Source: Flavobacteriales bacterium (GTDB lineage: Bacteria > Bacteroidota > Bacteroidia > UBA10329). Taken from it: 64,000 nt of DNA. The DNA is taken from NCBI GenBank assembly GCA_016124845.1, contig WGMW01000026.1:1-64000 (forward strand). Reading direction: 5' to 3'. Positions 17,749 through 36,240 of the stretch are shown one piece after another; position 1 is the stretch's first letter, and each line of letters starts with the position of its first letter. Made by a program: the position numbers and the translations under genes. A model generated the notes under the pieces. That model made no database searches. It saw nothing but the letters and a program-made list of their open reading frames with translations, and had not been told where the DNA came from.

Positions 17749-18339
17749 TCAACCTTGATGTCGTGATCTCAGAACGGTTTCCACATCCTCCAACGATTTC
17801 CCTTTTGCCGTGAGTAGCACGAGATAATGGAAAAGCAGATCGGCAGCTTCATTCAAAAACAGTTCGTCATTGTTGTCTTTGGCCTCAATGACGGTTTCAA
17901 CTGCTTCTTCGCCCACCTTTTGCGCAATCTTGTTGATGCCTTTTTCGAACAGCGAAGTTGTGTATGATTTCTCTGAAGGATTGGCCTTTCGGTCTTCGAT
18001 GATGCGCTGCAATTGATGCGCAAATCCAGCCGCATCAGTATCGCCAAAACAGGTTTCGGTTCCCTTGTGGCACGTTGGTCCAACGGAATCAACCTGAATC
18101 AAAAGCGTATCGTTGTCGCAGTCGACTTCGATAGATTTCAGAAAAAGAAAATTGCCCGATTCTTCACCTTTGGTCCAAAGTCGTTGTTTGCTGCGCGAAT
18201 AGAAGGTCACTTTTCCCAACTCTTGGGTTTTCTGCAATGCCGCTTCATTCATATATCCCAACATCAAAACTGTTTTGGTGGCGTAATGCTGAATGATGGC
18301 TGGCACCAGCCCATCGCCTTTTGAAAAATCTACGTTCAT
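17749..18339 (-). CDS. hisIE: Bifunctional phosphoribosyl-AMP cyclohydrolase / phosphoribosyl-ATP pyrophosphatase
   Basis: This 196-aa fusion catalyses steps 2 and 3 of histidine biosynthesis. The HisI domain (1-100) contains [25 protein letters not shown] and the metal-binding [20 protein letters not shown]. The HisE domain (about 110-196) contains [17 protein letters not shown]. It is the last his gene and overlaps hisF by 4 nt (ATGA). Confidence 0.96.
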
Positions 18340-19088
18340 CTTACAGGAATTCCTTTTGTTCTTAATTCGTTTTTGAGTTGGGGAATCGGCACTTCACCGA
18401 AATGAAAAATGCTGGCAGCCAAGGCGGCATCCACACCCGATTTTTGAAATACATCTACAAAATGCTGTGCATTTCCCGCTCCACCAGAAGCAATGATCGG
18501 AATCGTTGTGATCGCGTCCAATTCCTTCAATAAATCAATGGCGAAACCGCTTTTTGTTCCATCATGCTGCATGGAAGTAACGAGCAGTTCTCCCGCTCCG
18601 CGTTGCTCCGCTTCCTTTGCCCAAGCGAAAACATCAATGTCGGTTGCTGCTCTTCCGCCATGCGTGAATACGCGCCAATTTCCATCAACCATTCCAGCAT
18701 CAATGGCAACCACCACACACTGATTCCCGAATTCGTTCGCTAATTCAGAAATGAGTTCTGGTCGCCTAACGGCAGAAGAGTTAACGCTCACTTTATCAGC
18801 ACCCGCAGCCAGCAGAATCTCTACATCTGCAACGGAACTGATTCCACCACCAACGGTAAACGGAATATTGATCTCTTCGGCAATATGACCGACCAATTCG
18901 GCAAAGGTTTTTCGACCCTCAACCGTGGCTGTGATGTCAAGAAAAACGAGTTCATCGGCACCTTGCTCAACATACGCTTTGGCCAATTCCACCGGGCCGC
19001 CAGCATCGCGAATCTCAACGAAATTCACACCTTTTACGGTACGACCATCTTTGATGTCGAGGCATGGTATGATTCGTTTTTTCAGCAT
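18336..19088 (-). CDS. hisF: Imidazole glycerol phosphate synthase, cyclase subunit
   Basis: This 250-aa TIM barrel contains catalytic aspartates in [15 protein letters not shown] (Asp 11) and VVAIDAGM (Asp 130 equivalent). The phosphate-binding GGGIS, ASGGAG and AASIFHFGE loops are present. It uses ammonia from HisH to form IGP and AICAR. It overlaps hisIE by 4 nt and lies 26 nt from hisA. Confidence 0.97.
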
Positions 19089-19114
19089 TTCATTTCACGC
19101 AGAGGCACAGAGAT

Positions 19115-19828
19115 TTACAATTCGGATAGTTCTTTCAGTGTCACTCGGTTTTCATAGATGGCTTTTCCGAGAATCGTTCCATCGCAGCCGATTTCCTTCA
19201 GTTGGATGAGGTCTTCAATCGAAGAAACGCCACCGCTTGCAATCAATTTCAATTCAGGAGAATTCGCAAGGATTCTTTCGTAGAGTTGAATAGAAGTACC
19301 TTCCAACATTCCATCTTTTGAGATGTCGGTACACACCACATATTCAATTCCTTCTTTTTGATAGTCTGATATGAATTCGATCACATCCAACCCGCTGTCA
19401 TCCAACCAACCGTGTGTAGCGATTCGCCCGTTTTTAGCATCTGCACCGAGAATGATCTTCTCAGATCCGAACTCAGTTATCCATTGCAATACTGTTTCTC
19501 GTTCGTTCACGGCAATGCTTCCGGCCGTGATCTGTTTTGCACCCGAATTAAAGACCGTTTTGAGATTCTCAGTAGTTCGCAATCCTCCGCCAAAATCCAC
19601 TTGAAGATTCGTTTTTGACGTGATGGATTCCAGCACTTTCCAGTTCACCACTTTCTTGGCTTTCGCGCCATCCAGATCCACCAGATGCAAGTACTTCAAA
19701 CCTGCATCCTCGAACTGCTTGGCGACTTCCAACGGATTCTCGTTGTACACCGTTTTCTGGTTGTAATTGCCTTGCGAAAGGCGCACGCATTTTCCGTCAA
19801 TGATGTCGATGGCGGGAATGATTCTCAT
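19115..19828 (-). CDS. hisA: Phosphoribosylformimino-5-aminoimidazole carboxamide ribotide isomerase
   Basis: This 237-aa TIM barrel homologous to HisF carries Asp 8 in [18 protein letters not shown] and the second catalytic Asp in [12 protein letters not shown]. Phosphate loops DFGGGLRT and ASGGVSS are present. Length is normal. The start overlaps the hisH stop by 4 nt (ATGA). Confidence 0.97.
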
Positions 19829-20532
19829 AACTCCAAAAAGTTCTTGATGAGTTGCTGACCGACATCGGCCGACTTCTCTGGATGAAACTGCACTGCGTGG
19901 AAATTATCCTGCTGCAATGCTGCGGAAAACGGCAAGATGTAATCGCATTTCGCTGTGGTCTGCGAACCAATTTCAGCGTAATAACTGTGTACGAAATAGA
20001 AATCAGCATTTTCAAAATAACCACCCCGTCCCTGATGGACACCCCTCCTTTCAGAAGGAGGGGAGCTGGCACGTTGATCCAACGCCTTTTCAGAACCACC
20101 AATCTCCCCCTGCAAGGGGGGAGTGTCCGCAATAAGCGGACGAGGGGGGCAGAAAAGCGGCCCTTTCAGTTCCGTGCAATTGTTCCAACCCATGTGTGGC
20201 ACTTTTTCTTTGGCGGATGGAAAGCGTTTTACATTCTCACTGAAAATACCCAGACATTCCGTATCGCCTTCTTCCGAATGCTTGCACATCAATTGCAACC
20301 CAAGGCAAATGCCTAGAAATGGCTGATTCAGGTTCTTCAGCACTTCGTCCAAACCACGCTCACGCAAATAGCGCATGGCCGAACCTGCCTCTCCCACACC
20401 TGGAAAGATCACTTTATCCGCTTCGCGAAGCAAACTCGGGTCATCGGTAACGGTTGCGTCTGCACCAAGTCGATCCAGCGTATTCATCACCGAGCGGATA
20501 TTGCCCGCATTGTATTTGACAACCGCAATCAT
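19825..20532 (-). CDS. hisH: Imidazole glycerol phosphate synthase, glutaminase subunit, with in-frame repeat insertion
   Basis: This class I glutamine amidotransferase (235 aa from ATG 20532, which overlaps the hisB stop as ATGA) feeds ammonia to HisF. The catalytic triad is visible: Cys in [10 protein letters not shown], and His and Glu in VQFHPEKS. The insertion ([20 protein letters not shown] then [10 protein letters not shown], about 43 residues) lies between [14 protein letters not shown] and [16 protein letters not shown], at a loop near the HisF interface, and makes it longer than the usual 195-205 aa. An upstream in-frame ATG at 20604 would lie inside hisB and is not used. Confidence 0.93.
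20028..20156 (-). repeat. Palindromic coding repeat, copy 4 (inside hisH, variant)
   Basis: Read on the minus strand: CTCCCCCCTTGCAGGGGGAG hairpin, a linker containing AAGGCGTTGGATCAACGTG, CCAGCTCCCC, then hairpin CCCCTCCTT-CTG-AAAGGAGGGG and a G-rich tail. The linker (GGCGTTGGATCAACGTGCC) matches that of the pheT copy (GGCGTTTGAAGAACGCGCC). The frame is again the one giving (D/E)(Q/E)R(A/T)SSPP. The 5' hairpin differs from the other three copies. Confidence 0.82.
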
Positions 20533-21614
20533 AGTACGCCTTTTGTGGATGGCATCGAGCCGTCTGATGTCTGCGAAACAGCCATGCGAATGACCCGTGC
20601 CCAAGCTTTGAAAATCGCCTCGATCTTATGGTGTTCGTTTTGTCCTTCGGCTTTGATATTGAGGTTGCAACGCGCCTTGTCTGAGAACGACTTGAAGAAA
20701 TGTGAGAACATTTCGGTCGGCATTTCGCCAATTTTTTCTCGCTTGAAATCTGCTCCCCAAACGCACCACGGACGACCACCGAAATCGATGGCGACCTGCG
20801 CCAGACAATCATCCATTGGCAAGAGAAAACCGTAACGCTGAATTCCTTTCCGCGAACCCAGCGCATTGTCGAATGCTTCGCCCAACGCCAAGGCCACATC
20901 CTCAATGGTGTGATGCTCGTCAATGTGCAGATCGCCATCCACTTGAACATTCAGATCCATATTTCCGTGCTTGGCCAATTGCTCCAACATGTGATCGAAA
21001 AAACCCAAACCCGTTTGGATGTTCGACTTTCCTGAACCATCCAAATTCAGTTCAATCTGAATATCCGTTTCCGAAGTTTTCCGATGCACGGAACCTAAAC
21101 GCGGTTGCTCTTTCAGAAAGCGATAGATCTCGTTCCATGAAGTCGTTGTAAGTACGCAATCAGCTTTTTCATCAGAAATAAAAATGGCCTTGGCACCGAG
21201 GTTCTTTGCCAGTTCCACATCTGTTTTCCTATCACCAATCACGAACGAATGCCGCAGGTCGTAATTCCCTTTGATGTAATGCGTCAACATCCCCGTTCGC
21301 GGTTTGCGCGTTGGAGCATTATCGGCTGAAAAACTGCGGTCGATGAGCACTTCCGAAAAGCGGATTCCTTCACCTTCCAGCGTTTTCATTATCAGGTTAT
21401 GGGCAGGCCAAAACGTGTCCTCTGGAAATGAATCGGTTCCCAATCCATCCTGATTGGTGACCATCACCAACTCATAGTCCAACTCCGTGGCAATTTTCGC
21501 GAGATTGGAAATCGCGCCCGGATAGAATTCCAATTTCTTGAAACTATCGATCTGCTCGTCCGCAGGTTCCTTGATGATGGTTCCGTCTCTATCAATAAAC
21601 AAGACCTTTTTCAT
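20529..21614 (-). CDS. hisB: Bifunctional histidinol-phosphatase / imidazoleglycerol-phosphate dehydratase
   Basis: This is a 361-aa protein from ATG 21614, which overlaps the hisC stop by 4 nt. The N-terminal HAD phosphatase (about 1-165) has FIDRDGTI and [12 protein letters not shown]. The C-terminal IGPD (about 172-361) has the metal-binding repeats [15 protein letters not shown] and [15 protein letters not shown]. This fusion is known from enterobacteria and some Bacteroidota. It catalyses two non-consecutive steps, before and after HisC. Confidence 0.96.
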
Positions 21615-22645
21615 GATGCTAACTTTTTCAACTCTGCAAGCAGTGTTGTGTTCTCCTCTTCGGTTCCAACAGTAATGCGCAGGCAACCTTCAGCAACTTT
21701 GGAACGGTCGCGGACCACAATTCCTTTATCAGTAAGCGCATCGTAAATCGTCTTCGGCTCGGTGAATTTCACCAACAGAAAATTGGCGTCAGACGGATAA
21801 ATGGTCAACACGTTTTTCAGTTGATCCAATTCAACTTCCAGCCTCTTTCTTTCGGTGAGAATGGTTTTCACTTCCTTATTAAAAGCCGCTACATTCATCA
21901 ATTCCCGCAGCGCAACTTCTTGCGATAGCTGATTGACATTGTAAGGTGGCTTGATGCGATTCAGAACCTCAATCACTTCTTCATTCGCGAACGCCATTCC
22001 CAGACGAATACCCGCCAACCCCCACGCCTTGCTGAGGGTTTGCAGAACCACCAAATTGTTGTGATTTCCGAGCTCTTTTGAAAATGAATCCTGCTCGGAA
22101 AAGTCGATGTACGCTTCATCAATCACCACCAACCCATTGAAATTGGAAGCGAGCTGAAGAACATCACTTCGCTGCATGCAATTTCCTGTTGGATTGTTGG
22201 GCGAACAGATGAACAGCAGTTTGATGTTCGCATCAGAAAACCGCAATTCGATTGCTTCCAGATTCAGTTGCCAATCTGGGGTGAGCGGCACATCAATCAC
22301 CTCCACATCGTTGATGTCTGCACTTACTTGATACATGCCATACGTTGGTGAGCAGATCAGTGCTTTGTCCTTTCCAGATTCGCAGAAAGCGCGGAACAGC
22401 AGGTCGATGGCCTCATCGCTTCCGTTACCGAGGAAAATGTTCTCTTTCGGAACATGCTTGAGTTCAGAAATACGTGCTTTCAGCTTCCATTGCAATGGAT
22501 CCGGATAGCGGTTCAACCCTGTGTTGTTGGGGTTTTCGTTGGCATCCAGCCACACCGAAGCAGAACCTTTGAACTCATCGCGTGCACTGCTGTACGGTTT
22601 CAGATTCCGCACATTCGGTCGTATCAGTTTCTGAATATCAACCAT
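21611..22645 (-). CDS. hisC: Histidinol-phosphate aminotransferase
   Basis: This 344-aa PLP enzyme has the Lys motif [14 protein letters not shown], the ring-stacking [11 protein letters not shown] and [10 protein letters not shown] (Asp/Tyr). It converts imidazole acetol phosphate to histidinol phosphate. It overlaps hisD by 8 nt and hisB by 4 nt. Confidence 0.97.
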
Positions 22646-23921
22646 TGCTCAACTTCTTTAATCGGAGTGAAACCGCATTTCGGTGGGCATCCAATTGTTC
22701 AGCAGCAGCCATCGTTTCGATGCTCGGTCCGATGTTCTGGATTCCTGCAGCCGTCAATTTTTGGAACGTGACTTTCTTCAAGAAGCTGTCCAAGGAAACA
22801 CCGCTGTAGCTTCTTGCATAGCCGTTTGTGGGCAAGGTGTGATTCGTTCCACTGGCATAATCGCCCGCACTTTCGCAGCTGTAGTTACCAAGAAAAACGC
22901 TGCCTGCATTCACCACTTGGTTCGCCAGTTCATCACAGTTCTGAGTTGCAATGATGAGGTGTTCTGGCGCATATCGGTTCGAGAAATCCATGGCTTCTTG
23001 CCATGAACCAAGAACAATGGCCGAACTGTTTTCCAGTGCTTTTTGAGCAATGTCTTTTCGTGGAAGTTGATTCAATTGAGGTTCCAATTCTTCCAGAATC
23101 TCAATTAAAACCTGTTCGCTTCCCACAAAGACAAGAATCACGTGACTGTCCGATCCGTGTTCTGCCTGACTAAGTAGATCGGCCGCAACGAAAGACGGCT
23201 CGCAGGTATCGTCAGCAATTACCAAAACTTCGCTTGGACCAGCTGGCATATCGATGGCCACGCCTTGCTGCTGAACGAGCTGTTTGGCCATGGTCACGTA
23301 CTGATTTCCTGGACCAAAGATCTTGTCCACTTTCGGGATGGATTCCGTTCCCGAAGCCATGGCAGCCACCGCCTGCGCGCCACCAACGGTGTAGATTTGC
23401 TTCAGACCGAGTTTTTGCGCTACGTACATAATGGCCACATCCACCGAACCGTCTTTTCGAGGTGGCGTGCAGACCACAATTTCTTTGCAACCAGCGATCA
23501 TAGCTGGAATTCCGAGCATGAGAAGCGTAGAGAACAGCGGGGCACTTCCTCCTGGAATGTACAGACCGACCTTTTCGATGGCGATGCTTTTTCGCCAGCA
23601 GAAAACGCCTTCTGTGGTCTCAATTTTTTCGGGCAATTGCTGTTGCGCTGAATGGAATTTGTGGATGTTGTTCCAAGCCTCATCAATGGCTGATTTCAAC
23701 TTTTCATCAATTTCAACCGATTCAGGAACTTGTAGCGCCAACGAACTCAGATTCACCTTGTCGAATTGCGAGGTAAGGGCAATCAATGCTTCATCGCCCC
23801 CTTCCCTGACTTCATCCAAAACCTGCTGAACCTTCGGTTGAAGTTCGGAAAGATCCATTGTCGGGCGTTCGCACAACTGAGGCCAATCGCTGCGGGCTGG
23901 GTTTCGAAACACCTTCATCAT
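22638..23921 (-). CDS. hisD: Histidinol dehydrogenase
   Basis: This 427-aa enzyme catalyses the last two steps, histidinol to histidine, with NAD. Characteristic stretches are GLYIPGGSAPLFSTLLMLG, IFGPGNQYVTMAKQLVQ, AGPSEVLVIAD, the Zn-ligand segment DLLSQAEHGSDSHVIL, and ASGTNHTLPTNGYAR. The start overlaps the hisG stop by 4 nt (ATGA). Confidence 0.97.
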   Translation of the reverse strand: MMKVFRNPARSDWPQLCERPTMDLSELQPKVQQVLDEVREGGDEALIALTSQFDKVNLSSLALQVPESVEIDEKLKSAIDEAWNNIHKFHSAQQQLPEKIETTEGVFCWRKSIAIEKVGLYIPGGSAPLFSTLLMLGIPAMIAGCKEIVVCTPPRKDGSVDVAIMYVAQKLGLKQIYTVGGAQAVAAMASGTESIPKVDKIFGPGNQYVTMAKQLVQQQGVAIDMPAGPSEVLVIADDTCEPSFVAADLLSQAEHGSDSHVILVFVGSEQVLIEILEELEPQLNQLPRKDIAQKALENSSAIVLGSWQEAMDFSNRYAPEHLIIATQNCDELANQVVNAGSVFLGNYSCESAGDYASGTNHTLPTNGYARSYSGVSLDSFLKKVTFQKLTAAGIQNIGPSIETMAAAEQLDAHRNAVSLRLKKLSNG

Positions 23922-24772: not shown

Positions 24773-24790
24773 TGTTCCTTTTTTCTCATT

Positions 24791-24869
24791 AGACCCTGAA
24801 TCGCTCCGCCTTCGGGGTTCGTTCCACCAACACTTTCCGTTTCGCCTACGGCTCACGCAAAGCGGGTCT
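24791..24869. repeat. Element with inverted AGACCC/GGGTCT ends between attenuator and hisG
   Basis: AGACCC (24791-24796) and GGGTCT (24864-24869) bracket 67 nt containing further short palindromes (CCGCCTTCGGGG, GCCTACGGC). It looks like a dispersed palindromic repeat inserted in the untranslated leader, downstream of the terminator. Confidence 0.4.
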
Positions 24870-24871
24870 CA

Positions 24872-24904
24872 CGAAAAAGCCCCATCGGAGTTCCGATGGG
24901 GCTT
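24872..24904 (-). terminator. Attenuator terminator of the his operon
   Basis: On the minus strand AAGCCCCATCGG and CCGATGGGGCTT form a perfect 12-bp stem with the 4-nt loop AACT, followed by TTTCG so that five T residues close it. It lies 33 nt after the stop codon of the His-rich leader peptide and 100 nt before hisG. Nothing else is encoded between, as expected for transcription attenuation. Confidence 0.9.
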
Positions 24905-24937
24905 GATAAATCCTTTCTATGGCATCAATGCATCAGC

Positions 24938-24991
24938 TTACTCCGGTTTTTCCGAGCAGTTAAGATGATGGTGATGATGCGTTCTTGTCAT
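24938..24991 (-). CDS. hisL: his operon leader peptide (five consecutive His codons)
   Basis: ATG at 24991 opens a 17-codon frame, MTRTHHHHHLNCSEKPE, ending TAA at 24938. The run CAT CAT CAC CAT CAT is the classic signal sensed by a ribosome stalled for charged tRNA-His. The His-codon run can pair (CATCA / TGATG twice) with TGATGCATTGATG just after the stop, and CGGAGT in the last codons can pair with ACTCCG in the terminator loop and 3' arm, so alternative structures exist. It lies 34 nt after the desaturase stop, on the same strand. The attenuator role is inferred from this layout. Confidence 0.9.
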   Translation of the reverse strand: MTRTHHHHHLNCSEKPE

Positions 24992-25024
24992 TACGTCCGC
25001 TAATTAACAAAAGATTTTCTTTTC

Positions 25025-26257
25025 TCAGCTTGCCGGCTGCAAACGGTATTTCAGCAACGCAATGATGTCCTCGCGGCTCATGTCTCCGTTCAGATCCACG
25101 AATTTATCGGCCATCTTTTCGAAATCGTTGAAAAGGATGAGGAAGAAAATCTCAAATGCTTGCGTATCCTGAAAGATCACCGCGCGGTTCTGTTTGTATT
25201 CCTCAATGTGCTTCTCAAAGTTGACGGGATACTCGCGCCAATGCGTTTGCGGACGCTTGTGATGCTCCACATGAAAATCCTCATTGTAAACGTTGTATTG
25301 CCCATCCAAAACCGTGATGCTGTTCTTGTAGATGTTCTTCGGTTCTGACGGGTCGGTCCACGCATGCCACGTGTAGTTGATGGCAGCCAATAGGAAGATA
25401 CAGCTCAGATGCGGAATAAGCAGGTAAGCAAACCCGAACCAGAAGTTGATGCTCATGACCACGGCCATGAATCCATAGAACGCGAGCATGCCGTAAACCA
25501 TCTTTCGGAACTCGGCCATCTTGCCCTTTTTGTAGTGGTAATGCGCCACGGAAATTCCCGTCCAAAACAGCGCAAATTCAAGCAGATAGATCAGGAACCG
25601 CGCTGCGTGCGAGCGGTCGTAGAAAATGGTTGAGGTCACATCATCGGCCGCGTTATCGTGTTTGTGGTGGATGCGCATGTGACCCATTGGGTAACCTTGC
25701 GGCACATGGCCGTAAAGCATGGCCAGAAAATGACCGTGAAAATTATTGAACACCTCAAAGGGTTTCTTGAACATGCCTTTCGGAGTATGTCCTTCCTTAT
25801 GGATCATCGTTGCTACTTGCGAGAAAAACGCGAAGTACGGCCCGTAATTCAGCACGTTATAGGCCAACGCGGCCAACCAGTTTTCCCAGCCCCAATGGTT
25901 GTTGGCATCCAAGTAAACCACCTGGAAGTAGTACGAGCCGATGAACAACAACGGAGCATAGATCCCGATTCCGATGTACGAGAACAGATACGGACTGTCG
26001 CGTTCGTCCTTCATCACTTTTCGCGCCAGCCAAAGTGCGCCTGCATTCAGTTTTTCTGAAAGCCAACGAGCCGGTGCTGTTTTGTACGTCCAACCAATGA
26101 TGCCGACCCAAAGCATGGTCAAAGCAATCACCACAGCCAACCACGGAATGGGCAACAGCAGTATGCTTGTTCCCAGTAGAAAAAGGAAATACTTGAAACG
26201 GAGCGTAAAGGTTTTTCCTTCTGCTGCTTGATTCAGCGTTTGACTTAAATAGGCCAT
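25025..26257 (-). CDS. Fatty acid desaturase family membrane protein
   Basis: This 410-aa integral membrane protein has several hydrophobic helices (YFLFLLGTSILLLPIPWLAV, FLIYLLEFALFWTGISVAH, AVVMSINFWFGFAYLLI). The three di-iron His boxes are visible: HKEGH, HMRIHHKH and HVEHH. These place it with membrane fatty acid desaturases/hydroxylases rather than AlkB. Position and substrate are unknown. Its upstream region carries a perfect dyad (26324-26351) that may be a regulator site. Confidence 0.85.
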   Translation of the reverse strand: MAYLSQTLNQAAEGKTFTLRFKYFLFLLGTSILLLPIPWLAVVIALTMLWVGIIGWTYKTAPARWLSEKLNAGALWLARKVMKDERDSPYLFSYIGIGIYAPLLFIGSYYFQVVYLDANNHWGWENWLAALAYNVLNYGPYFAFFSQVATMIHKEGHTPKGMFKKPFEVFNNFHGHFLAMLYGHVPQGYPMGHMRIHHKHDNAADDVTSTIFYDRSHAARFLIYLLEFALFWTGISVAHYHYKKGKMAEFRKMVYGMLAFYGFMAVVMSINFWFGFAYLLIPHLSCIFLLAAINYTWHAWTDPSEPKNIYKNSITVLDGQYNVYNEDFHVEHHKRPQTHWREYPVNFEKHIEEYKQNRAVIFQDTQAFEIFFLILFNDFEKMADKFVDLNGDMSREDIIALLKYRLQPAS

Positions 26258-28596: not shown

Positions 28597-31500
28597 TCAT
28601 CTGGCCTTGATGATAAAATGCACGCCATAGTAGGGAGGCATGTTATTGTGAGCTGCCCCACCACCGGTGGATCCGGTGCTTTCTGTGGTTCCCGTGCCTG
28701 CGAAATCGGAGGCTCCGTTGTTGCTTCCGCTGAATGAGCGCTGTGTATATTCAAGTCCGTGGCTATGTGCGGGCATTTCATTGATGGTAAGCGTTACCTT
28801 CTCCTCACCACCCGTGCTTTTCAACGGCCGTGCAGTTTCACCGATATTGACCACATCCTGCGCTCCGAGCGGGAACCTTCTTCTCAGATCGGGCACGGAG
28901 GTGGCACTAAGAAGCGCGTTCAAGGCCGGATAGGTGGCAGGATCGAAGCTGCTGCCATCGCAGATCAACCAGCCGTCAGGTGGAGTTTCCGTTATCCACA
29001 TCTGAATACAACCGACAGGTACAGCAGGTTGCCAACTGGCATTTCCGTTGGCATCGCTGGTAAGTACGCGACCGTCTGCCTCCGTGCCATCAACATATTG
29101 GAGGGTACCGACCACATCCAGCGTAGCACTTGGCGCAGATATGCCAAGACCCGTGTTGCCATTCTTCAAAACCACCAATGCATCCGATCTGCCAGAATTG
29201 CCTGTTCCATTTCCAACGGTTAAGAGACGGTCAGATGCGTTCCATCCCGTAGAGCTACTCGGAGTGTAGTTTGTATTGTAGCGACCAATGGTGGTTTCGT
29301 ATGCGGACGGGGCCGTTGTTTCACTTCCCATGGCAGTGGAATAGTCTCCACTGGCCGCTGTATGATATCCGGTGGCGGTGGAATATTCACCGCTGGCTGT
29401 TGTTTGTACTCCCATGGCGGTAGATGCCCCCCCACTGGCCGTTGTCTGTCTCCCCATTGCGGTGGATGATCCTCCACTGGCCGTTGCGTCTCTTCCCATG
29501 GCGGTGGAAGCGTATCCACTGGCAATTGTATTGTTGCCCATAGCTGTAGTATAGGTATTACTGGCTGTTGTATAGCCCCCTAAGGCTGTGGAATAGTCTC
29601 CACTGGCCGTTGTCCCAACTCCCAAGGCGGTGGAGATATCACCACTGGCCGTTGCCAGATTCCCCAAAGCGACCGAACCATTTCCAGTAGCCTTGGTATT
29701 CTTTCCCATAGCAATACTGCTGATCCCGAGACTATCGGCATCCCACTTCGCACTTTGAACCTGTCCGGCCCGGAAAGCCCCCTTGCTTTTATCAAAGAAA
29801 AAACGGTTGTCGTGTTGGGTATTCCCGTCATCATCCAGTTGAGTTGAGCCGAAGACAAAATCGTCTGTGGTTGCATCTACCGCATTTCCCGGTAGCACAA
29901 CTCCGCCAAGCGTATCGAAAACCATTGGAGAGGAAGTGGCCGCTTGCCATGTGGCCGTACCGTTGGCATCGCTTGTCATGACATAACCTGCCTGTTGGTT
30001 GCCGTCCACCATGCGGATGTTGCCCACTACATGCAGTTTATCGGCAGGAGTTGTGACACCGATACCCACATTGACCGCAGATGCGCCCGTTCCGCCCAGC
30101 ACCAATGAGTTGCTGGCACCTACCTTGGCATTGGCCCCAATGGCCGTTGCATTGGTCAACTGAGTGGAGGTGGACAGACTGGCACTAAAGCCCAAGAACG
30201 TATTATTGCTTCCTGAAGTGTTGTAGTTGCTTCCTGAATTGTCATAACCGGCCCACACACCGACAGCTGTATTATGGCTTCCCGTAGTGTTCTCCTTAAG
30301 AGCAGACACTCCGACCGAAACATTTTCGAAACCCTCTGTGGTGTTGGTCAATGCCCAGAACCCCACACCCGTATTGCTATTACCTGTGTAAGAGAGTGCA
30401 TTGCTTCCTACCGCGCCCGCACCTATGGCGGTATTGTTCACTGCATTTCCTTTGGATAATGCCTTGCTACCCACAGCTGTATTTGATGTGGCAGTAGTTA
30501 CCTGCTGTCCGGAAGTGTAACCGATAAAGACATTTTCATTATTGGAAAGGTCATCGTTCTGACCGGCCGACTGTCCAATGAATATAGACCTTCCGGTATT
30601 CAATACATTCAACCTGCCTGCATTCATATTGAAGTACTCAACACCTGCCATATCGAACCGGATAATGTCCTCATCTGCACTTTCCTCCACTTGAATTTTG
30701 GTATCGCCATTGGCATCGGAAATAATGCTCATGGTATCGGTAGCAGACGCTTGATATTGTTGCCAACTCGCATTGCCACTGCCATCACTGGTAAGCACAT
30801 AACCCTCAGCTTGTGTGCCATCCTGGTATTTAAACTTACCTACTATATGCAAAGTAGCATCAGGTGTAGAGATTCCAATACCTGTGTTTCCATTTTTCAG
30901 GACGACCAAAGCATCGGAAAGATTTGTAGAAGATGTACCTTTCCCGATGGTGAAGAGGCGGTCGGCTGCGTTCCATAAATTGGAATCAGCCGGAGTGTAG
31001 ATGGTATTAAACCTTCCTATGGTGGTTTCGTATCCGGAAGGAGCCGTTGTTTGGTTTCCCATTGCGGTGGAATAGGCTCCACTGGCTGTTGTTACAGTTC
31101 CCATGGTAGTGGAATTGATACCACTTGCCGTTGTTTGATACCCCATGGCGGTGGAATAGGAGCCACTGGCATTTGAATTAATTCCCATGGCGGTAGAAGT
31201 GCCTCCACTGGCTGTTGTATGAAATCCTATGGCGGTGGAATTGTTTCCAGCAGCCGTTGCTTGATTCCCCGTGGCAAAGGAATTGTTCCCACTGGCCGTT
31301 GTATTATTTCCCAAGGCTGTGGAAGTAGTTCCACTGGAAATTGTATTATTCCCTATTGAGGTGGAATAATGTCCACTGGACATTGCACCTTTCCCCATTG
31401 AGATGGAATAGAGTCCACTGGCGGTTGTTACTGTCCCAATGGCGGTAGAATAGTCTCCATTGGCCGTTGTTTGATACCCTATGGCGGTGGAATAAGTTCC

Positions 31501-34500
31501 AATCGCCTTAGTATTGTATCCCATAGCAATACTGCTGGTTCCGAGACTATCGGCATCCCAATTCACGTTCGTAACCTGTCCGGCCCGAAAAGCTCCCTTG
31601 CTTTTGTCAAAGAAGAAACGGCTGTCGTGGTCCGTATTTCCGTCATCATTCAGTTGGGTGGAGCCGAAAACGAAGTCAGCTGTGGTTTCATTTACCGCAC
31701 TTCCGGGTATGACCACACCACCCACGGTATCGAAAACCATCGGGAAGGAAGGTGTAGTAGCCGCCTGCCAACTTGCATTACCTGCACTATCGCTGGTAAG
31801 AACGTAGCCATCGGCCTGCGTACCATCAGCAATCTGCAAGGAGCCTTCCACTTCCACATCGCCATTGAAACGGAGCAGGTCATTGTCAAACTCTCCATAT
31901 ATCAAGGGGGTGGTAGAGTTTGAGTTTTCGATGTAAAGTTTGTTTGACCCCGTTTCATTCATTGCGGAATAGGTTCCGAGGAAAATGTTGTCTGAGCCAT
32001 TGTTCGCTGCTCCGGACAGCGTTCCAATGAATATGTTGCCCGATCCCTGATTGGAACTGCCACTCAGGCCACCAATGGCCACATTGTACTGCCCTGATGA
32101 GTTGGAATGGAGGGCTTCCCGGCCAACGGCCACGTTGAAATCACCGCTGGACATGCTTTTCAACGACCTCATTCCAATTCCCACATTACTGACACCGACC
32201 CCTATGTCCTTTCCGGCCTCGTAACCGACCAGAACATTGAAAGAGCCATACGTAGGGGTCGACTGGCCAATGGCAACCGATCTGAATATGTTCTTCACCT
32301 GAATTCTGCCCACATCATCTATCACAAGCACTTCTTTTCCGCCCACATCCACACGGATGGTGTCCTCATCCGCAGTTTCCTCTACTTGGATCTTGGTATC
32401 GCCATTGGCATCGGAAATAATGCTCATGGTATCGTTAGCAGACGCTTGATATTGTTGCCATGTGGCATTTCCTGCACTATCGCTGGTAAGGATGTAGCCA
32501 TCGGCCTGCGTGCCATCCTGGTATTTCATTTTACCTACCAAGTGGAAGGTGGTATCAGGTGTTGAGGTGCCAATACCTACATTGGCGTTATAGCCCAGCA
32601 CTATACTGTTGCTTTTGGCGACCGTGGCATTGGCCCCAATGGCGGTGGCATTGGTGAGGTTGCCGCTGGCCACATCTGCAAAGTGTCCCACGGCCGTATT
32701 GTATGTTCCGGTAGTGTTTGAACCCAATGCCCACATTCCAAAACCTGTGTTATTCTCTCCGGTGGTGTTGCTGTAAAGTGATTGGTAGCCAAAAGACGAG
32801 TTGTTGCTTGCAGTACTGTACCTCTGCGATAAATTGCCGAAGGCACTGTTGGCAACACCATTCACATTATCAGCAAGAACCTCCGATCCGAAAGCACTGT
32901 TCTCATACGCGTTGGTGGCATTCTCCATTACTCTGTAACCTACCGCTGTATTATCGTTGGCCAGAGAATTACTCAATGCATTATAACCAATGGCCACACT
33001 TTGATAAGTTGATTCACCTTCCTTTAGCGCATTCTCGCCAACACCCACGTTTTGATTACCGTTGAAATAACTATTCAGGCCTGCATTATTGCCAATAAAT
33101 ACGTTACCTCCTGTATTGACCACTTCCAACCTTCCACTGTCCATCCGGAAGAACTCCGTGCCCGCCATGTCAAAGCGGATGATGTCCTCATCAGGGCTTT
33201 CTTCCACTTGTATCATGGTGTTGCCATCCGCATCCGAAATGATGCTCATGGTATCGGTAGCAGACGCTTGAGATTGTTGCCATGTGGCATTTCCTGCACT
33301 ATCGCTGGTAAGGATGTAGCCATCGGCCTGTGTGCCATCCTGGTATTTCATCTTACCGATCAGGTGGAAGGTCGTGTCGGGTGTGTTTGTGCCAAGTCCT
33401 GCATTACCGTTTTTAAGTATGACCAACGCGTTGGCGCGGATGCTGGGATCTTGCCCGATACCGAATGTAAAGGCTGGGTCGGTGGGCACCCAAGCACTTG
33501 CCGACACCCCGGGTATAGTATCGTTAAAGCTGCCGAATACCATTTCCTGATACGAATTGGCAATCAGCCAATAACCGAGGGCGAAAGTTTGCGTGGCATT
33601 TAAACTGTTTGAGGCGCCCATACCGAACGACCAACCGGAATTATCGGTATTGGTTTCACCGATCACGTATGATTGATATCCACTTACGGTGTTGCCTCTG
33701 CCAAAGGCGTAACTGCGAAAACTGTTGACCGTGTTGCCGGCACCAAAGATGCCGGAACTGCCTTGGGCGTTATTGCCGGCTTCCAACGTGTTGTTGTAGC
33801 CCACAATAGTGGAGAACCGTCCATTGAGCTGATTGACATGCCCCAATACACTGCTGAATATGGAAGTGTAATCGGTCCCGACCGAATTGAACATTCCAAT
33901 TGCAATTCCCGGAGCGGAGTTTACGCTGTCCATCAGACCGATGGCCACCGTTCCACTACCGCTTGCAAAGCTGTTGAGTCCGGCAGCAAAACCGCTACCC
34001 GTGGCGTAGTTGCTGTTGTTCTGATAGATGGCACTTCCGTTCACGATCCAGTCGCTATCGTTAATGGCCGAAATGGTATCGTTGCTGATGGTGATGTTAT
34101 CGCCTGCAATGTATGTACCTGCTGGGCCTGTTGCCCCCGTTGCGCCAGCGGCACCTGTCAAGCCTGTCGGCCCGGTCACTCCTTGAATTCCCTGTGCTCC
34201 CGTTGGACCTGTCGCCCCGTCAGCACCGTTTGAACCGGCCGCTCCGGTCGGACCCTGTGGGCCTGTTGCGCCCGTTGCACCAGCGGCACCCGTCAAACCT
34301 GTCGGCCCGGTCACTCCTTGAATTCCCTGTGCGCCTGTTGGACCTATCGCCCCGTCAGCACCGTTTGAACCGGCCACTCCGGTAGGACCCTGTGGGCCTG
34401 TTGCCCCCGTTGCACCTGCGGCACCTGTCAAGCCTGTCGGCCCGGTCACTCCTTGAATTCCCTGTGCGCCTGTTGGACCTGTTGCCCCGTCAGCACCGTT

Positions 34501-36162
34501 TGAACCTGCCGCTCCGGTCGGACCCTGTGGGCCTGTTGCGCCATCGGCACCCGCCAAGCCTGTCGGTCCGGTCACTCCTTGAATTCCCTGTGCGCCTGTT
34601 GGACCCGTTGCCCCGTCAGCACCGTTTGAACCGGCCGCTCCGGTCGGGCCCTGCGGACCTGTTGGACCTGTTGCGCCACCGGCACCGTTTGAACCTGCCG
34701 CTCCGGTAGGACCCTGTGGACCTGTTGCGCCCGTTGCGCCATCGGCACCCGCCAAGCCTGTCGGCCCGGTCACTCCTTGAATTCCCTGCGCGCCTGTTGG
34801 ACCTATCGCCCCGTCAGCACCGTTTGAACCGGCCACTCCGGTAGGACCCTGTGGGCCTGTCGCGCCTGTTGCGCCATCGGCACCCGCCAAGCCTGTCGGT
34901 CCGGTCACTCCTTGAACACCCTGTGCACCTGTTGGACCTGTCGCACCGTCAGCACCGTTTGAACCTACCGCTCCGGTAGGACCCTGTGGGCCTGTCGCGC
35001 CTGTTGCGCCATCGGCACCCGTCAAACCTGTCGGCCCGGTCACTCCTTGAATTCCCTGCGCGCCTGTTGGACCTGTCGCCCCGTCAGCACCGTTTGAACC
35101 TGCCGATCCGGTCGGACCCTGTGGACCTGTTGCGCCCGTTGCGCCAGCGGCACCTGTCAAGCCTGTCGGTCCGGTCACTCCTTGAATTCCCTGCGCGCCT
35201 GTTGGACCTGTTGCCCCATCAGCACCGTTTGAACCTGCCGCTCCGGTCGGACCCTGCGGGCCTGTTGCGCCCGTTGCACCATCGGCACCCGCCAAACCTG
35301 TTGGCCCGGTCACTCCTTGAATTCCCTGCGCGCCTGTTGGACCTGTTGCCCCGTCAGCACCGTTTGAACCTGCCGCTCCGGTCGGACCCTGTGGGCCTGT
35401 TGCGCCATCGGCACCCGCCAAACCTGTCGGTCCGGTCAGTCCTTGAACACCCTGTGCACCTGTTGGACCTGTTGCCCCGTCAGCACCATTTGAACCTGCC
35501 GCTCCGGTCGGACCCTGTGGGCCTGTTGCGCCCGTTGCGCCATCGGCACCCGTCAAGCCTGTCGGCCCGATCACTCCTTGAACACCCTGCGCGCCCGTTG
35601 GACCTGTCGCACCGTCAGCACCATTTGAACCTGCCGCTCCGGTCGGACCCTGTGGGCCTGTTGCGCCATCGGCACCCGCCAAGCCTGTCGGCCCGGTCAC
35701 TCCTTGAACACCCTGCGCGCCTGTTGGACCAGTTGTCCCACCATTGCCCGAAGTTTCGGCATACAACGCATATGGCACCGAAAGCAATTGTGATACCCCC
35801 ATGCTCTGGTAGTTCGTTCCACCTGAGGGATCCATGCTCACTTCCAGAAAATACGGGCCATTGCTCCAATCCACCGAGTTCAATGTGGATATGAGTGGAG
35901 TACCCGTACCTACGTGAAGATTGAAAAGCCCAAACTGGTTGGTGGTGGCAACATGGCTTTCACTGAAGATAATGATCCCTGTTGCGGTGGTCTGCCGAAG
36001 ATCCATCCGCAAACCGATGTTCTGGTTGGCGAGGATGTTTCCGCCATTGTCTCGGGCAACGCCCTGGTAATTGAATGCCTGAGGCGCTTGCGCCATGGCA
36101 TAATTAATAATTAGGAATGATGAATTGAGAATAAGGATGGTTAGGTAAAGAAGCTTTTTCAT
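28597..36162 (-). CDS. Giant collagen-like fibre protein with YadA-head-like repeats and phage tail-collar tip (2521 aa)
   Basis: Start is ATG 36162 ([20 protein letters not shown], signal peptide). Order: a shared N-terminal domain (about 26-140, [20 protein letters not shown] to [13 protein letters not shown]); a Gly-X-Y collagen-like stalk (about 143-686, with [17 protein letters not shown] and [10 protein letters not shown] units); left-handed-helix/YadA-head-like repeats (STAMGxxTTASG and AIGxxA); three or more copies of a [20 protein letters not shown] module; and finally a Phage Tail Collar domain (about 2385-2521: [45 protein letters not shown]). There is no T9SS domain. It probably forms a trimeric surface fibre; the ligand is unknown. 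It ends in a terminator and is divergent from the 502-aa gene. Confidence 0.88.
32420..32535 (-). repeat. 116-bp internal duplicate (unit 1) in the 2521-aa gene
   Basis: This block matches 33242-33357 with four differences in 116 positions by eye (offset 822 nt). It encodes the [20 protein letters not shown] module and flanks. It is far more similar than the surrounding modules, which points to recent duplication or gene conversion. Confidence 0.85.
33242..33357 (-). repeat. 116-bp internal duplicate (unit 2) in the 2521-aa gene
   Basis: Partner of 32420-32535. A third, more diverged copy of part of the same module lies near 30720-30840, and related ones occur in the other two fibre genes. 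Confidence 0.85.
34105..35740 (-). repeat. Collagen-like Gly-X-Y coding repeat array
   Basis: It has about 180 Gly-X-Y triplets in long units of 15 triplets (135 bp) or 14 triplets (126 bp), differing by one GAT triplet. Within a unit the order is GPTGAQG(I/V)QG, VTGPTGL(A/T)G, A(D/A)[13 protein letters not shown](A/V)AGSNG and ADGAT. Length variation between units indicates slippage or recombination. Confidence 0.9.
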
Positions 36163-36240
36163 GTACGGGTAAGGCTTGATCAAATCGACCCGAAAGGTAG
36201 CCTCCACCTGCTACAACAAAGAGGAAAAAATCTCTCCTGC

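Follow-up and report, generated by a model that had tools for sequence, protein, structure and literature searches.

A candidate histidine attenuator upstream of hisG in a Flavobacteriales bacterium, with equivalent elements across Bacteroidota

Results

A predicted his attenuator in the window

We are highly confident that the region ahead of hisG in the 64,000-nucleotide stretch of Flavobacteriales DNA analyzed here (the window) controls the his operon by ribosome-mediated transcription attenuation. It combines a short leader open reading frame (ORF) carrying a run of His codons, an intrinsic terminator, and an antiterminator that is mutually exclusive with that terminator. All three are kept in the genus of the window, and counterparts that differ in sequence recur across Bacteroidota. 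The first-pass annotation had proposed a complete his attenuator working by enterobacterial logic; the conserved elements and exclusive pairings support this proposal, and from them we infer its function. The features are listed below.

25025..26257, minus strand: fatty acid desaturase (PF00487)
25008..25015, minus strand: likely -7 promoter element ATCTTTTG for the leader transcript, a degenerate TAnnTTTG, putatively assigned
24938..24991, minus strand: his leader peptide ORF, MTRTHHHHHLNCSEKPE and stop, from the sequence; kept in congeners L001, L002, L004, and L091
24965..24979, minus strand: five tandem His codons, putative regulatory codons, from the sequence and the phylum count
24922..24980, minus strand: leader (protector) hairpin, His codons paired with GATGCATTGATGC after the stop, from folding
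24931..24945, minus strand: antiterminator 5' side, CGGAGT AAG CTGATG, pairing with 24886-24898
24886..24898, minus strand: antiterminator 3' side, CATCGG A ACTCCG, from the MFE with the ribosome at His codon 5
24874..24904, minus strand: intrinsic terminator, 12-bp stem and T-run, from the sequence and the comparison of leaders with shuffles
24790..24873, minus strand: extra segment between terminator and hisG, absent from sisters L001, L002, and L091
23918..24772, minus strand: hisG, first structural gene (NCBIfam TIGR00070)
17749..23921, minus strand: hisD, hisC, hisB, hisH, hisA, hisF, and hisIE (NCBIfam matches and ORFs)

The leader ORF has 17 sense codons and runs on the minus strand from an ATG at 24991 to a TAA stop at 24940-24938. 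Its His codons, CAT CAT CAC CAT CAT, occupy 24979-24965 without interruption, and the minus-strand sequence thus bears out the 17-codon frame with five consecutive His codons described earlier. It is a short predicted leader whose codons are enriched for the amino acid that the operon produces. As a check on how common the His-codon pattern is, we searched the source genome for CAYx5 and found it in 15 places. We rejected the idea that it is a common leader-like feature genome-wide: the five other sites examined fall inside long frames, none of them in a leader-like ORF. Downstream lies a complete and compact his operon of eight genes, hisGDCBHAFI(E), in enterobacterial order and with a bifunctional hisB; because of this, it is the operon that a leader of His codons would be expected to control.

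The terminator, AAGCCCCATCGG-AACT-CCGATGGGGCTT at 24904-24877, forms 12 perfect pairs between the leader and the first structural gene, and its T-run extends to 24874, just as the perfect 12-bp stem with a T-run had been noted. The stretch from leader through terminator folds at -43.5 kcal/mol (z = -5.5 versus dinucleotide shuffles). The terminator was said to be followed by hisG; the gene is indeed downstream but not immediately adjacent, with about 100 nt from the T-run to its ATG (24772). Most of this gap is a segment missing in the sister genomes, where the T-run lies only about 20 to 30 nt from hisG. The segment is about 85 nt long, begins with AGACCC, and ends with GGGTCT. A full-length search of its own genome found no second full copy, and we therefore rejected the idea that it is a repeated element.

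Some other features of the window and genome deserve mention. HisH (window 20000-20190, minus strand) carries an in-frame insert of about 40 residues that the sister species lack. The DNA of this insert is a dispersed repeat, found in 11 further partial copies elsewhere in the genome. A 2,536-residue ORF at 28597-36207 on the minus strand encodes collagen-like GATGPTG repeats and, after them, long repeats resembling those of trimeric adhesins. Searches of genome G000, which is about 99% complete, gave no match to Anth_synt_I_N (trpE) or PDT (pheA). Sister attenuators of trpE and pheA were dropped as candidates, neither gene having been found there. The gene content makes tryptophan and phenylalanine auxotrophy possible in G000, despite its complete his operon.

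His-rich leaders and terminators across Bacteroidota

We assembled 152 hisG upstream regions: 80 contig loci, the window, and 71 regions from same-genus and phylum-wide whole genomes. Searches at the level of the taxonomic order and family yielded nine genomes, all from one genus. We counted a short ORF as His rich if it had three or more His codons in a row, or four within a stretch of eight codons, and lay no more than 260 nt from hisG. Such an ORF is present in 127 of the 152 regions, a non-random set in which most loci were found via hisG similarity and some are near-duplicates. None was found in antisense or in 150 stretches taken 300 to 560 nt upstream, and only 4 of 760 dinucleotide shuffles (0.5%) had one. 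Given these counts, the His-rich leader ahead of hisG is not due to chance. Conservation of the His run in relatives, which the first-pass annotation had suggested checking, is thus found both in the congeners and phylum-wide. One congener locus, L096 (genome G003), has a divergent hisG with 59% identity and no His leader; it is possibly a different or mis-binned copy.

For terminators, we looked between the leader stop and hisG for a T-run preceded by a hairpin with an energy of at most -7 kcal/mol. This combination occurs in 85 of the 127 His leaders versus 7 of 254 shuffles (3%).

The predicted antiterminator is conserved and covaries at one column

For each terminator-bearing leader, we compared how well the terminator 5' arm pairs with the sequence following the His codons and with shuffles of that sequence. 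Complementarity reached p <= 0.05 in 69 of the 85, with a mean z of -2.8. In the window genus, the test was negative when limited to the terminator 5' arm and loop (p = 0.79). This exception is only apparent, because the pairing in this genus extends into the beginning of the 3' arm; when those bases are included, five genomes gave -16.6 to -19.4 kcal/mol (p = 0.005 to 0.018), and the more distant congener L004 gave p = 0.068. In a swap of leaders among terminator families, support came from 12 of the 17, a weaker outcome than that of the shuffle test.

Covariation was followed in an alignment (A1) of 30 relatives with the CCCGTCTGAG-type terminator. Paired cells make up 91.3% for the terminator and 91.8% for the antiterminator, versus mostly 23 to 57% when the partners are slid by 1 to 3 columns. 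At column 103, in the terminator 5' arm, C changes to T jointly with column 116, its terminator partner, in 8 cells and jointly with column 39, its antiterminator partner in the leader, in 6 cells; these counts ignore the relatedness of the sequences. Therefore, both alternative partners follow the same arm. The stem covariation that had been named as a check is thus found at one column, and for both partners.

Alternative pairings in the window

In the window, the antiterminator duplex (24931-24945 with 24886-24898) has an energy of -16.6 kcal/mol (p = 0.018), and it is the same in the congeners. Its 3' side overlaps the terminator 5' arm, the loop, and the start of the 3' arm. Pairing of CGGAGT (24945-24940) with ACTCCG (24891-24886), seen in the first reading of the sequence, holds up, and it is extended by CTGATG (24936-24931) with CATCGG (24898-24893). 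That reading also had the His run pair with the segment after the leader stop. This hairpin is predicted to form in the window, at -19.9 kcal/mol (z = -2.1; 3% of shuffles reach an energy this low), but phylum-wide it is the weakest of the three structures and is significant in only 27 of the 85 leaders.

We then simulated ribosome states by folding the window leader with its 5' part masked and its 3' end grown stepwise, using ribosome footprint sizes assumed from general knowledge. With no ribosome, the protector hairpin with the His codons forms, followed by the terminator. With a ribosome placed at the fifth His codon, CGGAGT-AAG-CTGATG pairs with CATCGG-A-ACTCCG at -19.7 kcal/mol, and this antiterminator persists until most of the terminator 3' arm is transcribed; a slightly shorter fragment gave -18.5 kcal/mol, and none of 300 shuffles was as low. 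With a ribosome on the stop codon, the terminator alone forms. In silico, then, the antiterminator excludes the terminator and is free only when the ribosome is stalled at the regulatory codons; the three simulated states reproduce the classical logic of an attenuator.

A promoter element upstream of the leader

The first-pass annotation had remarked that the element sits right behind a desaturase gene, with little room for a promoter. The desaturase is there, its end about 34 nt before the leader ATG, but most leaders have a candidate promoter element close by: of 126 leaders, 91 have an exact TAnnTTTG, the Bacteroidota -7 box, in the 60 nt preceding them, versus 5.2 expected. The box is mostly found 7 to 10 or 16 to 21 nt before the leader start codon, and these distances suggest a very short 5' stretch ahead of the leader. 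In the window genus, the box is degenerate (ATCTTTTG, AACTTTTG) and matches TAnnTTTG poorly; TTTTG is kept at its position in L001, L002, and L004. Because of this degeneracy, we consider a promoter directly upstream of the window leader to be likely and no more. The closest sisters, L001, L002, and L091, share the upstream desaturase, but L003 and L004, two less closely related congeners, have none at that place, which makes the leader independent of it.

Leaders without a terminator

By the hairpin and T-run test, 42 of the 127 His leaders have no intrinsic terminator, a count that includes L117, where a hairpin and T-run are present and were missed. From the last His codon to the stop, these leaders have a median of 2 codons versus 7 in those with a terminator (p about 1e-17). 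Their stop-to-hisG stretch is C rich and G poor (median skew, 0.13 versus -0.045; p about 7e-10). Both p values overstate independence, since most terminator-less leaders come from one clade (Algoriphagus, Cecembia, Lunatimonas, and Marivirga); the same make-up also occurs in other families (L156 and L160-L162). His codons abutting the stop (HHFHHSS* and similar) with no intrinsic terminator are seen in L014, L020, L033, L037, L041, and L042, as well as in L051, L062, L156, and L160-L162. In the Cecembia group, a small conserved hairpin spans the stop codon. Leaders of this Cyclobacteriaceae type probably work differently from that of the window. The His codons at the stop, the lack of a terminator, and the C-rich, G-poor stretch suggest possible Rho-dependent attenuation: a ribosome stalling at these stop-proximal His codons would shield a Rho loading site. 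That Bacteroidota have two his leader machines, the classical one of the window and a terminator-less, possibly Rho-dependent one, is a tentative idea that we consider rather doubtful.

Discussion

The elements described here suggest the following sequence of events. Transcription would begin just upstream of the leader. When His-tRNA is scarce, the ribosome would stall in the five His codons, leaving CGGAGTAAGCTGATG free to pair with the emerging CATCGGAACTCCG; with this antiterminator formed, there would be no terminator, and hisGDCBHAFIE would be transcribed. When His-tRNA is plentiful, a ribosome at the stop codon would cover CGGAGTAAGCTGATG, the 12-bp terminator would form, and transcription would end near 24874. 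Without translation of the leader, its hairpin would hide CGGAGTAAGCTGATG, and the terminator would form as well.

Could the stem simply be the 3' terminator of the desaturase, with a coincidental His run and a hisG that has its own downstream promoter? The desaturase ends close to the leader ATG, and the gap from terminator to hisG would accommodate such an arrangement. However, L003 and L004 keep the leader end and the terminator without a desaturase upstream, the sisters have hisG shortly after the T-run, and His runs are absent from all control stretches; we consider this account very improbable. It is also hard to credit that the leader acts mainly on hisG translation or mRNA stability rather than on transcription termination. 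Attenuators of this sort exist, and among Bacteroidota leaders of another type, many have no intrinsic terminator. In the window, however, the stem has a T-run at its end, its distance from the hisG start is about 100 nt, and its arms leave this start uncovered; covariation shows the antiterminator to be conserved in relatives.

The extra segment between terminator and hisG, along with the in-frame repeat insert in hisH, might point to decay, leaving a constitutive partial terminator and a non-regulatory peptide that are no longer used in this species. Yet nothing in the leader, the terminator, or either alternative pairing is broken, and all of them agree with the sister species; we give this explanation very little credence. 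Attenuation by a translating ribosome is the reading that we favor.

The enterobacterial his leader has seven His codons. The window leader has five, but like hisL it has tandem His codons, a putative leader hairpin, an antiterminator, and an intrinsic terminator, arranged in that order before hisGDCBHAFI. The stem sequences are different, and the -7 box is of the Bacteroidota type. The Rfam His_leader family (RF00514) is the top match over the whole element (full model 1-126, same strand), with a score of 32.2 bits (E = 0.0016) that is below the curated gathering cutoff of 49 bits and does not place the element in the family; no Rfam family reaches its threshold in the window.

The first-pass annotation could not say whether such an element had been described for this lineage. 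A related one is known from another lineage: a study of Flavobacterium psychrophilum (PMC9723704) reports clues to leader-peptide attenuation upstream of amino-acid operons and a structured 5' transcribed region of hisG that is conserved in other Flavobacteriaceae and has no Rfam hit. Phylum and gene are the same as for the window leader, and our analysis adds an explicit antiterminator and a distribution across much of Bacteroidota. His-leader attenuators are also known in Firmicutes, including the Bacillus cereus group, Clostridioides, and others (PMC9413887, PMC2965389). They have three to five His codons, a terminator, and an antiterminator before his genes or hisZ/hisS; they belong to another phylum, a resemblance in leader sequence would not be expected, and their likeness to the window leader is probably convergent. 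Several surveys and reviews name only Proteobacteria, Actinobacteria, and Firmicutes (PMC2965389, PMC9413887), and a paper on his genes in the Bacteroidota superphylum (PMC8305728), when searched, yielded no mention of leaders.

The mechanism is thus textbook, and the F. psychrophilum element partly anticipates the attenuator of the window. What emerges is that a predicted amino-acid attenuator of the classical kind is the rule before hisG in Bacteroidota rather than the exception. The elements of the textbook enterobacterial switch are present in a distant phylum, in the window and in most of the relatives checked, and the window element offers a readily testable example of transcription-translation coupling from a phylum whose promoters and translation starts are unusual.
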